Below the pieces are notes generated by a model that was not told the DNA's origin, searched no databases, and worked only from the letters and a program-made list of their open reading frames with translations. Made by a program: the position numbers and the translations under genes. From positions 1-20,217 of the IMG/VR virus record IMGVR_UViG_3300043425_000573: 20,217 bases of DNA. One strand, written 5' to 3'. Shown piece after piece: positions 1,828 through 15,094 of this stretch. The stretch's first letter is position 1. Each line of letters begins with the position of its first letter. The DNA is from a virus.

Positions 1828-2999
1828 CAAAAACTGTAGCAGTCATCGGTGCCGGTATTACCGGTATCACTACAGCATATTACCTTGCTAAAAAAGGTTA
1901 TAGTGTAACTGTCTACGAACAAGAACCACATGCGGCAATGCGTACTAGCTTTGCCAATGGTGGACAAATATCAGTTAGTAACAGTGAAGTCTGGACTACA
2001 TGGAGTAACGTCAAGAAGGGCATCAAGTGGCTCTTTAAGAAAGATGCTCCGTTGTTGATTCGTCCTCGTTTAGATTATCGTCAATGGAAGTGGATCGCAA
2101 AGTTTCTATACAATACTGCTACAAATCAGTATGAAAAGAACACTAGCGAAACAATTAAGATGGGTCTAGAATCTAGTAAGTTGTACAAAGAAATTATGTA
2201 CACAGAAAAACTAAGTTTTGACCAATCACCTTCAGGTATTCTTCACTTCTACAAAGATAAACAATACTTTGAAGCCGCAAAACAAGCACAATACATCTAT
2301 CGTAAGAACGGTTGTGAGTGGGATATAGTTGACACACAACGAGTTAAGGAGTTAGATAGTACACTAGAAAATGTTGAGGGTATCGTAGGTGGTGCGTGGA
2401 CATTGGGTGATTGGACTGGTGACATTCATAAGTTTTGTATAGACCTTGAGCGTGTGTTGAAGAAGAAATACGGAGTAACTTTTATTTACAATTCAGTAAC
2501 TACTAAAGATACAATGCTACAATTAGTCAATTTGTATGATGCTGTAGTTGTATGTGCAGGTGTAGGTAGTGTTGACATTGCTAACAGTGTAGGTGATACG
2601 TTAGACATTTACCCAGTCAAAGGTTACAGTATTACTATCAATAACGTAGATAAGAAACATTTGCCTGTCGTTAGTTTGTTAGATGACCAAGCAAAGATTG
2701 TTACTGCAAGTTTAGGTAATCGTTTCCGTGTTGCAGGTACTGCTGAACTAGCAGGTGAGAACTATGATATCCGTCATGATAGAGTCAAGCCATTGCTAGA
2801 TTGGGTAAGAACTAATTTCCCTAATATGGATACTAGTGATTACAGTAGTTGGGCATGTCTCAGGCCAATGACTCCGAACATGATGCCTATTACCAAACGT
2901 AGTGACAAGAATGATAAAGTGTACTATAATACAGGACATGGTCACTTAGGTTGGACATTAGGTCCAGTAACAGCAAAACAAATTGCGGAAATGATATGA
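1824..2999 (+). CDS. FAD-dependent D-amino-acid dehydrogenase-like oxidoreductase (DadA/glycine-oxidase family)
   Basis: A 391-residue flavoenzyme of the DAO fold, which oxidises the amine carbon of amino acids or related compounds. The N-terminal dinucleotide fold is intact: GAGITG (residues 9-14) and a ribose-binding Glu at YE (31-32). It is followed by the DadA-like TSFANGGQIS block (41-50), a central YPVKGYS motif, WACLRPMTP, and the C-terminal NTGHGHLGWTLGP that closes over the flavin. E. coli DadA is about 432 residues, so this is slightly short but complete. No signal peptide is seen. The ATG overlaps the preceding stop, and its own TGA overlaps the QueE start (ATGA at 2996-2999). Such an enzyme is unusual in a phage. 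The substrate could be a free D-amino acid or an amine on a modified base, and the sequence does not decide which. Confidence 0.85.
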   Translation: MTKTVAVIGAGITGITTAYYLAKKGYSVTVYEQEPHAAMRTSFANGGQISVSNSEVWTTWSNVKKGIKWLFKKDAPLLIRPRLDYRQWKWIAKFLYNTATNQYEKNTSETIKMGLESSKLYKEIMYTEKLSFDQSPSGILHFYKDKQYFEAAKQAQYIYRKNGCEWDIVDTQRVKELDSTLENVEGIVGGAWTLGDWTGDIHKFCIDLERVLKKKYGVTFIYNSVTTKDTMLQLVNLYDAVVVCAGVGSVDIANSVGDTLDIYPVKGYSITINNVDKKHLPVVSLLDDQAKIVTASLGNRFRVAGTAELAGENYDIRHDRVKPLLDWVRTNFPNMDTSDYSSWACLRPMTPNMMPITKRSDKNDKVYYNTGHGHLGWTLGPVTAKQIAEMI

Positions 3000-3844
3000 G
3001 TCAAATAAAAATTTCAGAATTATTCTATTCAATTCAAGGTGAAGGTAAATTCATGGGAGTCCCGAGTGTGTTTTTACGCACGTTCGGGTGTAACTTTGAA
3101 TGTAATGGCTTTGGGTTGTCTAAAGGTGAAAAGAGTACAGAGAGAGATACAATTGCGATTAAAGCAGAAACTTATACAGATTATAAATCCTTACCGCTTG
3201 TCAGCACGGGATGTGATAGTTATGCATCTTGGGACCCTCGTTTCAAACATCTTAGTCCTGTGCTCGATTCCGATACTATTGCTAACAGCATTGTTGATAC
3301 ACTTCCTCGAGGTCGTTGGATGGATGAGCACTTGGTTATCACGGGCGGCGAACCGCTTCTCGGATGGCAAAGAGCGTATCCTGACTTACTTTCGCACGAT
3401 AAGATGAAATCATTGAAGGAGATGACGTTTGAGACAAACGGCACTCAACATATAAGTGAGGACTTCACTAAGTATCTACGTGAATGGCAACGTAATCGTG
3501 CTAAAGATGCGATTACATTCAGTGTAAGTCCTAAACTCAGTATCAGCGGTGAAAAGTGGGAAGATGCTATCTGTCCCGAAGTTATCGCACAATACAAGGT
3601 TCATGGTTTCGTATATCTCAAATTTGTTGTAGCAACTAAAGAAGATGTGAAAGAAGCTGAACAAGCAGTAGATGAGTATCGCAAGAAAGGTTTTACTGGT
3701 CCTGTATACTTGATGCCATGCGGTGGCGTTGAATCTATCTATAGTTTGAATGCACGTAACGTAGCAATTGAAGCGATGAACCGAGGTTGGCGCTATAGTG
3801 ATAGACTACAAGTGCCGTTGTTTAAGAATGAATGGGGTACATGA
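2996..3844 (+). CDS. queE: QueE, 7-carboxy-7-deazaguanine synthase (radical SAM, with insertion)
   Basis: A radical SAM enzyme that ring-contracts 6-carboxytetrahydropterin to 7-carboxy-7-deazaguanine, the step after QueD. Seen in the 282-residue protein: the N-terminal ISELFYSIQGEG signature, the cluster cysteines C32 and C36, GGEPLL in the SAM-binding region, ETNGT and SVSPKLS. The usual spacing is CX3CX2C followed by DTxYxW. Here the third Cys appears to be C73, in GCDSYASWD, after an insertion of about 34 residues, giving CX3CX36C. The length is above the common 210-240 residues, as expected for this insertion. ATG 2996 is chosen because it overlaps the flavoenzyme stop and begins the conserved region directly; an earlier in-frame ATG (2951) only adds a read-through of the upstream gene. 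Confidence 0.92.
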   Translation: MSQIKISELFYSIQGEGKFMGVPSVFLRTFGCNFECNGFGLSKGEKSTERDTIAIKAETYTDYKSLPLVSTGCDSYASWDPRFKHLSPVLDSDTIANSIVDTLPRGRWMDEHLVITGGEPLLGWQRAYPDLLSHDKMKSLKEMTFETNGTQHISEDFTKYLREWQRNRAKDAITFSVSPKLSISGEKWEDAICPEVIAQYKVHGFVYLKFVVATKEDVKEAEQAVDEYRKKGFTGPVYLMPCGGVESIYSLNARNVAIEAMNRGWRYSDRLQVPLFKNEWGT

Positions 3845-8612: not shown

Positions 8613-9647
8613 ATGCACTCTTTCAATCTTACTACTAAACGTATCGGTTTTGCTTGTAAATTCGCTGAAATTAACAAGAAAGGCGAGATTTCGTCAGTCG
8701 AAGGTCTTAACACCGGCGGCACAACTATGGCATGGGCAAAGCGCAACACCCGCGCCGCAGTAGAAGAAAAAATCATTGATGTTGCTAAGACCAACATCGT
8801 AAACACACACAATCTTATTAAGAAGGTGGCAACTCTTCCCGAGCCACAACGCATGTTGCGCATTACTAGTGACATGCTTAGTTTTTATACACACGAAGAC
8901 TGGCAACCCTTCTGGCAATCTACTAATACTCAGGATTCACTCGCACGTTGGTTCGCTCCTCTAGGTGAGACTGCTAGACAAAACAACGTTCGCTTGTCAT
9001 TTCACCCTGACCAATTCGTGGTTCTTGCTAGTGACCGCGAAGATGTAGTAAATAAGAGTATCGAGGAATTCGAGTATCATTGTGACATGGCTCGCTGGTT
9101 AGGGTACGGTAAGACTTTTCAGGACATGAAGGTCAACGTTCATATCAGTGGTCGTCAAGGTCCCGAAGGTATTCGCAAGGCGTATCAGCGTCTAAGTCCC
9201 GAAGCACGTAACACTATCACTATCGAGAACGAAGAAAATGCCTGGGGACTTGACGATTGCCTTACTTTATCTGATTTGCTTCCAATTGTTTTGGACATTC
9301 ATCATCATTGGTGCAGAGAGGGAGAATACTTGGCAATCACCGACGAGCGTGTTCAGCGGGTTGTTGATTCTTGGCGCCATGTTCGCCCTACTCTACATTA
9401 TAGTGTGTCACGTGAAGATATCCTTGTTGGTCATTGCGTTAATACTTTACCATGCCGCGACAGCTTGATTGCCCAAAAAATCAACAAGCAAAAGCTACGT
9501 GCTCATAGTGACTACTTTTGGAACAACGCAGTTAATGACTGGGCATTGACATACGTAGATAAATTTGATATCATGTGCGAGTCTAAGGGCAAGAATCTTG
9601 CTAGCACACCATTATACGAGAAAGCGAAACAAAATGGGATTATTTGA
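8613..9647 (+). CDS. uvsE: UV damage endonuclease UvsE/UVDE
   Basis: A TIM-barrel endonuclease that nicks DNA 5' of cyclobutane dimers and 6-4 photoproducts, starting repair independently of UvrABC. The 344-residue length fits the family. Metal-site motifs are all present: RLSFHPDQF (H131, Q134), VHISG (H177), TIENEE (E205), LDIHHHW (D228, H230, H231), LHYSVS (H262), AHSDY (H298) and MCESKGK (E323, K325, the latter equivalent to the lysine reported to be modified in UVDE). The N-terminal RIGFACK opener is also typical. The ATG follows a sigma70 promoter; the ribosome site (TTGGT) is weak. The next gene starts 14 bp before the stop. It would suit a phage exposed to sunlit water, where dimers accumulate in DNA. 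Confidence 0.93.
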   Translation: MHSFNLTTKRIGFACKFAEINKKGEISSVEGLNTGGTTMAWAKRNTRAAVEEKIIDVAKTNIVNTHNLIKKVATLPEPQRMLRITSDMLSFYTHEDWQPFWQSTNTQDSLARWFAPLGETARQNNVRLSFHPDQFVVLASDREDVVNKSIEEFEYHCDMARWLGYGKTFQDMKVNVHISGRQGPEGIRKAYQRLSPEARNTITIENEENAWGLDDCLTLSDLLPIVLDIHHHWCREGEYLAITDERVQRVVDSWRHVRPTLHYSVSREDILVGHCVNTLPCRDSLIAQKINKQKLRAHSDYFWNNAVNDWALTYVDKFDIMCESKGKNLASTPLYEKAKQNGII

Positions 9648-14167: not shown

Positions 14168-14181
14168 CTTTTGTCAACGAC

Positions 14182-14209
14182 TTCACTAGCTGAGGCGTTA
14201 TTATATAGT
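14182..14209 (+). promoter_or_regulatory. Weak sigma70-like promoter before the exported-protein gene
   Basis: A TATAGT -10 candidate (14204-14209) with TTCACT (14182-14187) 16 bp upstream. A better -35, TTGTCA (14171-14176), is too far away. It would yield a leader of about 33 nt with AAGGAG at 14236-14241. Confidence 0.4.
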
Positions 14210-14226
14210 AGACGCTAAAATCTACT
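14207..14226 (+). repeat. Small inverted repeat in the leader of the exported-protein gene
   Basis: AGTAGA (14207-14212) and TCTACT (14221-14226), separated by 8 nt, form a 6-bp stem that overlaps the proposed -10 box and transcription start. It could be an operator or a 5' hairpin; six base pairs can occur by chance. Confidence 0.35.
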
Positions 14227-14248
14227 TCATTTTTCAAGGAGAAACCAA

Positions 14249-14512
14249 ATGAAACAATTAGCAATCGCAACATTAGCCGCATTATCTTTAACAGCATTCG
14301 CCGCAGAGCCCGCAAAGACTCCTGCTGCACCAGCTACAGCCGCATCTGCTCCAGCACCCGCTAAAGCAGAAGCTCCTAAGACTGAAATGAAGTTGGCTAA
14401 GAAGAAGGAAGACAAGGCTGCTCCCAAGCAAGACGCCACTAAAAGCCCTGTCAAGGACGAAAAGGCTGCAGCACCAACTGCTCCAAAAGCCGAAGCAAAA
14501 CCAGCTAAGTGA
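14249..14512 (+). CDS. Exported Ala/Lys/Pro-rich protein with signal peptide (87 aa)
   Basis: A clear Sec signal peptide: a short basic start, a hydrophobic core (LAIATLAALSLTAF) and a signal-peptidase I site AFA before AEPAK. The mature 68 residues are almost entirely Ala, Lys, Pro and Glu in loose repeats (PAAPATAASAPAPAKAEAPK), with no cysteine or aromatic residue, so probably disordered in the periplasm. It has a strong AAGGAG and its own leader, set apart from the coupled operon style upstream. Composition and signal peptide resemble short stress-type exported proteins of proteobacteria, which suggests acquisition from a host. Its role for a phage is unknown; periplasm or envelope conditioning, or superinfection effects, are possibilities only. 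Confidence 0.8.
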   Translation: MKQLAIATLAALSLTAFAAEPAKTPAAPATAASAPAPAKAEAPKTEMKLAKKKEDKAAPKQDATKSPVKDEKAAAPTAPKAEAKPAK

Positions 14513-14696
14513 AGTAGAGGACAGTGATAACTATGATGTAGTTGAATTAGACTTACATCGTAGTTATTCTAGACCTAAACTAGTTAAAGTTAAGAATCTT
14601 TGGGATGATGATGCTGAATTACCAGAACGTATCACAAAGAGATTAGCAGAAATTAGAGTCCAAGCTCTAGCAAAATACAGAGAAACATGGGGCTAA
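14511..14696 (+). CDS. Coding-looking frame without a usable start codon (61 codons)
   Basis: Immediately at the exported gene's stop, the +1 frame reads 61 codons to TAA with plausible protein character: an acidic N-terminal part (EDSDNYDVVELDL), a basic middle (RPKLVKVKN), then WDDDAELPERITKRLAEIRVQALAKY as a charged helix ending in TWG. The frame is open back to 14391, but no ATG, GTG or TTG occurs in it. An AGAGGA site (14515-14520) precedes ATGATGTAG, where one extra base would give a normal start. Explanations are a one-base sequence error or mutation, +1 frameshifting at AAG-TGA, or a non-standard start. The stop codon lies in the loop of the terminator. Coordinates begin at the first codon after the overlap and are not a claimed start. 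Confidence 0.5.
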   Translation, partial: EVEDSDNYDVVELDLHRSYSRPKLVKVKNLWDDDAELPERITKRLAEIRVQALAKYRETWG

Positions 14697-14714
14697 ATGC
14701 CCCTTTTCTCTTTT
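14689..14714 (+). terminator. Rho-independent terminator
   Basis: Stem GGGGC (14689-14693), loop TAAAT, stem GCCCC (14699-14703), followed by TTTTCTCTTTT. The loop contains the TAA stop of the overlapping coding frame. Confidence 0.85.
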
Positions 14715-14815: not shown

Positions 14816-15094
14816 ATGTTTAATTCATTCGCATTCCAAGCCGTCGACGGCATACAAAACGCTAAGAAACAATTCGTTTCTACATTCGTCCAGCACGAAC
14901 AATTCGCTAAAGTGCTAAACGGTTTCATTGACGCACAAGCATCATACACAAAAGAAGCAATCACAGCAGGTTCTGTAGCCGCAACTGGCGTACAAGAAAT
15001 CTTGACTGACCGCACACCCTATGTCAATTTGACAAAGAAAATCGCTGAGTACTTCCCTACTGCGGCTTGCGCTACAGGAAAGAAGGCTAAGTAA
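14816..15094 (+). CDS. Possible phasin-like or unknown helical protein (92 aa)
   Basis: A 92-residue, nearly all-helical, amphipathic protein: FQAVDGIQNAKKQFVSTFVQ near the N-terminus, then EQFAKVLNGFIDAQASYTKEAI and an Ala/Gly/Thr-rich stretch, ending KKAK. The rhythm of Phe, Ala and charged residues resembles phasin-family proteins, which coat polyhydroxyalkanoate granules, but no diagnostic motif proves this. It has its own promoter and leader, a strong AGGAG (14805-14809) and a terminator just upstream, so it is independently expressed, probably at high level. No signal peptide. The stop is 2 bp before the next ATG. Confidence 0.75.
   Translation: MFNSFAFQAVDGIQNAKKQFVSTFVQHEQFAKVLNGFIDAQASYTKEAITAGSVAATGVQEILTDRTPYVNLTKKIAEYFPTAACATGKKAK

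Follow-up and report, generated by a model that had tools for sequence, protein, structure and literature searches.

Sequence evidence for a probable programmed +1 frameshift at a lysine-stop junction in the gene for an exported phage protein

Comparison of a phage locus with its relatives argues that the gene for an exported Ala/Lys/Pro-rich protein (AKP) and the start-less open frame behind it constitute one gene, recoded by programmed +1 frameshifting at a lysine codon (AAG) that is followed immediately by a stop codon. A probability of about 0.88 is assigned to this reading. Three features generally looked for in a +1 frameshift gene, namely an overlapping +1 ORF that lacks a start codon, selection at the protein level, and a conserved site at the junction, were found. 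The locus lies in a stretch of viral DNA of 20,217 nucleotides (IMG/VR record IMGVR_UViG_3300043425_000573, positions 1 to 20,217), referred to here as the window, and its elements are the following:

14182-14209 (+): promoter-like sequence TTCACT-16-TATAGT before the AKP gene, matching the consensus weakly
14249-14512 (+): zero-frame ORF of the exported Ala/Lys/Pro-rich protein (AKP), 87 aa; N-terminus resembling a signal peptide by eye; ends with Lys AAG and then TGA
14507-14512 (+): proposed +1 shift site AAG_TGA, the Lys codon occupying the P site and the stop the A site; AAG in 38 of 38 sequences
14511-14696 (+): start-less tail ORF in the +1 frame, 61 codons (GAA ... GGC) followed by TAA at 14694-14696; would form a C-terminal extension of AKP after a shift
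14513-14581 (+): RNA stem-loop, proposed stimulator of the frameshift, from folding, shuffles and covariation
14689-14703 (+): hairpin resembling an intrinsic terminator, GC-rich, plus a T-rich run; overlaps the stop of the tail

The start-less frame and its relatives

From 14391 to 14696 (+), one frame of 101 codons is open and contains no ATG, GTG or TTG. It lies in +1 relative to the exported ORF (14249-14512), whose last codon is the AAG at 14507-14509 and whose stop is the TGA at 14510-14512. Both the absence of a start and the relation to the exported gene ending in AAG-TGA had been pointed out in a preliminary description of the window, and they are confirmed by the list of ORFs and by the sequence. 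The part of the open frame from 14391 to 14507 merely reflects the AKP gene read out of frame; the coding part, from 14511 to 14693, is referred to here as the tail, and includes the stretch NLWDDDAELPER. In the first 30 codons of the window tail, CTG, ATT, ATA and ATC are likewise absent.

Relatives were collected by scanning viral_contigs with the window tail, an alignment of tails and three distant tails, which yielded loci on 49 other contigs, many of them fragments. Omitted from this set were a locus equal to the window (L036), repeats of contigs (L039, L041, L042, L043, L050, L053 and L054), and two capsid loci. Together with the window, the 49 contigs provide 50 loci, representing 38 distinct AKP-to-tail sequences. 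The annotated phage genomes of INPHARED contained no match to the DNA, the tail or the fusion protein, and a scan of genome_contigs with the window tail returned no relative (174 pattern matches, 0 confirmed). Because the T4-type capsid protein Gp23 was found on two of the 12 contigs tested (L038 and L030; 364 kb and 124 kb), at least some of the carrier phages are T4-type. The 364-kb contig also holds two further partial matches to Gp23.

A comparison of the locus in related phages, which the preliminary description had proposed, reveals the same arrangement throughout. In all 38 distinct sequences the AKP ORF has a counterpart, its last codon is AAG, and a tail in the +1 frame is open from that codon onward. 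The stop codon is TGA in 22 sequences and TAA in 16; the absence of TAG (0/38), as might be read for a bias toward RF2 codons, is unremarkable against a baseline of 18 TAG stops in 410 genes. None of the 38 contains an in-frame fusion of AKP and tail, and in none does the tail possess a conserved start. The sample extends to tails with as little as 42-53% identity to that of the window. Among 29 representatives, which differ from one another by more than 10% between -60 and +90, the distance from the AAG to the conserved arm in the HRSY region is 14, 15, 17, 18, 23 or 24 codons, and the +1 frame is always open.

The pattern of substitutions shows purifying selection on the tail in the +1 frame only. 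Median pN/pS in that frame is 0.47 (436 pairs); the two remaining reading frames of this stretch yield 0.98 and 1.43, each from 123 gap-free pairs. When the tail is divided into segments (110 pairs of at least 60% identity), pN/pS is 0.46 before LDLHRSY, 0.31 in the arm region and 0.35 after it, and the pattern LP..I..RLAEIR..AL.KYRE is kept in the tails, far beyond the stem. The earlier impression that the last codons of the open frame look like real protein is thus more than chance, because the arrangement recurs in all 38 distinct relatives and pN/pS is low in the tail frame alone.

Modeling of the tail alone by AlphaFold, with 18 rows of relatives, predicts a single helix over tail residues 40-61, after an acidic stretch of low confidence (mean pLDDT 74.8, pTM 0.36; block pLDDT 93-94 over residues 41-60). 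The tail has no match in PHROGs. Against Pfam DUF3619 (PF12279), the window tail scores 17.9 bits, below the gathering cut-off of 22.2, and is not assigned to that family; the finding that 15 of 18 tails match it at E ≤ 0.1 (best 0.0031) is a lead only.

A search of PHROGs with AKP itself gave an E value of 0.0086. Four promoter-like sites occur in the region, compared with 1.6 expected in shuffles, which is no evidence of function. Directly before the AKP start, 14180-14251 (+) gives a full-length match to the freshwater-2 family of Rfam (RF02980) at 28.9 bits, which is below the gathering threshold of 49.9, and this 5' UTR is therefore not counted as a member; at gathering level, Rfam returned no match in 19 loci. 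A stretch upstream of the start that resembles GTCAAC ... GCGTTATATATATGTAGA is common to many relatives. At the other end, the terminator-like hairpin overlaps the stop of the tail, and AKP and tail are therefore probably carried on one transcript ending at 14689-14703.

A small gene after the tail, at 14816-15094 (+), is adjacent to it in many relatives and ends in KKAK, AAG-TAA. In the window, 32 codons of its +1 frame are open and start-less, yet this frame is not conserved in relatives, and the gene was therefore rejected as a second case of frameshifting. Elsewhere in the window, three genes (1824-2999, 2951-3844 and 8613-9647, all +) look auxiliary by eye and may encode a DadA-like oxidoreductase, a QueE-like radical SAM protein and a UvdE-like UV endonuclease.

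A stem-loop after the stop codon

The core helix of the stem-loop pairs 14527-14536 with 14558-14567 and its upper helix pairs 14540-14543 with 14550-14553, while weaker outer pairs extend to the base after the stop. This downstream hairpin was absent from the preliminary description. For the 29 representatives, dinucleotide shuffling of the 60 nt that begin 3 nt past the stop gives a mean z of -3.95, compared with -0.43 upstream; a repeat run gave a mean of -3.97, with 19 of the 29 at or below -3. As a control, 158 stops of other ORFs in these loci gave a mean z of -0.43, with eight at or below -3. Similarly, 50-nt windows fold with a mean energy of -16.7 kcal/mol at +15, against -4.2 to -10.2 kcal/mol elsewhere. 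When synonymous codons were redrawn with the protein kept, the mean z was -2.94, and for 17 of the 29 representatives at most 2 of 200 redraws were equally stable.

Among the 13 gap-free sequences, 96.9% of the core-helix cells are paired, and three pairs are changed on both sides. Compensatory examples are the change from AU to CG at columns 27/55 and from AU to GC at columns 24/58. The covariation score of these sequences was matched by 1 of 500 shuffles; the count of double-change pairs is unexceptional (81 of 500 shuffles). The protein changes along with the stem, from DNYD/HRSY in the window to DGPD/HRGY in L012. For six distant sequences, RNAalifold finds a weak consensus of -1.25 kcal/mol; five of these six are among the representatives, and each has a hairpin of its own in another register. 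Of the 60-nt stretches, those of L040 and L057 form a weak stem or none, and those of L046 and L048 a weak one. By folding alone, the spacer between stop and stem measures 0 to 19 nt in 28 of the 29 representatives and 57 nt in L040. The stem-loop after the stop, conserved by folding and covariation, is a candidate stimulator of the shift.

It had also been remarked that an AGAGGA site precedes ATGATGTAG, which one extra base would convert into a normal start. Both strings are indeed present, but they are located in the 5' part of the conserved stem-loop, and no start is conserved there. The proposal of a start that lacks a single base is consequently unsupported, as the bases concerned form an arm of the hairpin.

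Alternative explanations for the tail

Three options had been put forward in the preliminary description: an assembly error or natural indel, programmed +1 frameshifting that yields an exported fusion, and rare initiation. The comparison of relatives strongly supports the second. An assembly error, or a natural indel that split a formerly continuous gene, would account for one isolated sequence; it is rejected because the frame relation is common to all 38 distinct sequences, which derive from 49 other contigs and the window and include tails down to about 42-53% identity. In addition, an alignment of L001 with the window spans 8186 bases with a single mismatch and is free of gaps. As a general cause, an indel is already refuted, and the probability left to it is negligible. 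The tail might be a separate protein, made by termination-reinitiation or by rare non-standard initiation just past the AKP stop, and it does lie directly behind a stop codon, as in coupled genes; moreover, some canonical or near-cognate codon is present among the first 30 tail codons in 28 of 38 sequences. Yet in none of the 38 does a start codon occupy a conserved place, although a single substitution could supply an ATG to a separate gene. For 31 of 38 sequences, the first 30 codons of the tail are free of ATG, GTG and TTG, and in 10 of 38, the window included, CTG, ATT, ATA and ATC are absent as well. If the +1 frame is followed upstream to the nearest stop that it has within AKP, a canonical start is absent from 8 of 38 sequences and present somewhere in the other 30, mostly inside AKP and at no place common to all. 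Because no start is conserved and the first 30 tail codons of 10 of the 38 sequences offer none at all, canonical or near-cognate, rare initiation is disfavored, and a separately made tail protein is considered very unlikely.

In T4 gene 60, which is reportedly read by ribosome bypassing, a stop codon and then a hairpin stand between two coding blocks, and the present layout resembles it; ribosomes might accordingly take off from the final codon of AKP, cross the hairpin without decoding it, and land in the conserved part of the tail. The segment that bridges stop and arm, EVEDSDNYDVVELD, argues against such a hop, since its length varies from 14 to 24 codons among the 29 representatives and it nevertheless keeps the +1 frame free of stops in 38 of 38 sequences. 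Its pN/pS of 0.46 points the same way, as a bypassed stretch needs no frame, and bypassing is held to be exceedingly improbable. Finally, the stem-loop is the strongest signal at the locus and could be all that matters, as DNA or RNA (for RNA stability, for example), with the tail untranslated and its coding appearance due to chance. Against this stands selection in the +1 frame at the amino-acid level far beyond the stem, where the LP..I..RLAEIR pattern is kept, together with a pN/pS of 0.35 for the remainder of the tail and a frame that is open in 38 of 38 sequences. An untranslated tail is therefore highly improbable.

The proposed shift and known +1 sites

According to the preferred reading, programmed +1 frameshifting, most ribosomes would terminate at AAG-TGA and release the 87-aa AKP. 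A minority, having tRNA-Lys on the AAG in the P site while the stop waits in the A site, would shift by +1, pass over T, next read GAA (Glu) and add 61 residues. Both translation of the tail and the efficiency of the shift are inferred here. The resulting fusion of 148 aa, with the expected junction KPAK-EVEDSD, would carry the same signal peptide as AKP and presumably be exported as well. The stem-loop just past the stop would hold the ribosome and thereby probably raise the rate of shifting. Across the sequences, the codon at which reading would resume (tail codon 2) is GAA, AAT, GAT and others, in the +1 frame.

The AAG is the presumptive shift codon. Its constancy is weak evidence by itself, as the 29 representatives also show no variation, with AAA throughout, in two of seven well-conserved Lys columns of AKP, and the neighboring gene at 14816-15094 mostly ends in AAG-TAA too, without a conserved +1 tail. 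Two routes may be envisaged: tRNA-Lys could re-pair on AGU, or the next tRNA could enter out of frame. An AAG before U offers no obvious site for re-pairing, for which tRNA-Lys would need AGU, and out-of-frame decoding in the A site may therefore be needed. These two routes have been separated in work on yeast (PMC12661321), and AAG is the lysine codon that is paired weakly by the sole tRNA-Lys of E. coli (PMC5009743). No tRNA gene was found in the window or in the 33 loci scanned, and there is thus no lead to a suppressor tRNA. Likewise, AGGA, GGAG and GAGG are absent from the 20 nt before the AAG in all 38 sequences.

The locus would work like the shifty-stop +1 sites of prfB, Listeria phages and Euplotes, as these are described in the accessible portions of the papers cited here. 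In the Listeria phages PSA, A118 and A500 (tsh, CCC_UGA), a phage gene likewise acquires a C-terminal extension by a +1 shift on the sense codon that directly precedes UGA, and the cps site of phage PSA lies upstream of a pseudoknot, just as RNA structure is found downstream here (PMC5009743). Those sites, however, use CCC as the slip codon and occur in structural genes, whereas here AAG precedes UGA or UAA in the gene for the exported AKP, and the extension is unrelated; with AAG in 38 of 38, the CCC_UGA type is not what is present. Bacterial prfB (release factor 2; CUU_UGA_C) shares the shifty-stop +1 shift with the stop in the A site (PMC3711429, PMC10885494). Its CUU is accompanied by an upstream Shine-Dalgarno-like stimulator, while the phage sequences have AAG in 38 of 38 and a Shine-Dalgarno-like motif in 0 of 38, and the candidate stimulator lies downstream; they are thus not of the prfB type (CUU/YUU slip codon, upstream Shine-Dalgarno-like element) either.

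In Euplotes, a lysine codon is followed by a stop and a +1 shift, as proposed here, with 3,489 AAA-TAR and 41 AAG-TAR genes (PMC4759687). Euplotes is a eukaryote with an altered release factor and no conserved stimulator, unlike the phage locus with UGA in 22 of 38 sequences and a hairpin. Antizyme frameshifting resembles the locus in its A-site stop and in the use of downstream RNA structure as a stimulator (PMC4759687), but is eukaryotic, regulated by polyamines and dependent on another slip codon. A literature search, conducted mostly among papers available without subscription and including the accessible part of PMC8310308, found no description of the locus.

It is conceivable, if very unlikely, that the shift is regulated by export. 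When the ribosome reaches the AAG-stop, the signal peptide would already be outside it and could be engaged by the Sec machinery; the pull of Sec on nascent AKP, together with the hairpin and slow termination, would then set how often the helix is added. Should this be true, there would be two periplasmic isoforms whose ratio reports the secretion or release-factor state of the cell, and the site would constitute an export- or termination-sensing +1 frameshift switch.

Programmed +1 frameshifting is encountered less often than -1 frameshifting and is not as well understood, and the bacterial and phage examples given in the accessible portions of the cited papers have CUU before UGA (prfB) or CCC (Listeria phages). 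To these, the proposed sites would add a natural family from uncultured phages, at least some of them T4-type, in which the slip codon is the lysine codon AAG, placed before UGA or UAA, and a long stem follows; the natural variation of their sequences could be used to dissect which parts matter. The finding also bears on the exported phage protein AKP, behind which lies a conserved protein segment that would be overlooked by gene callers that depend on start codons.
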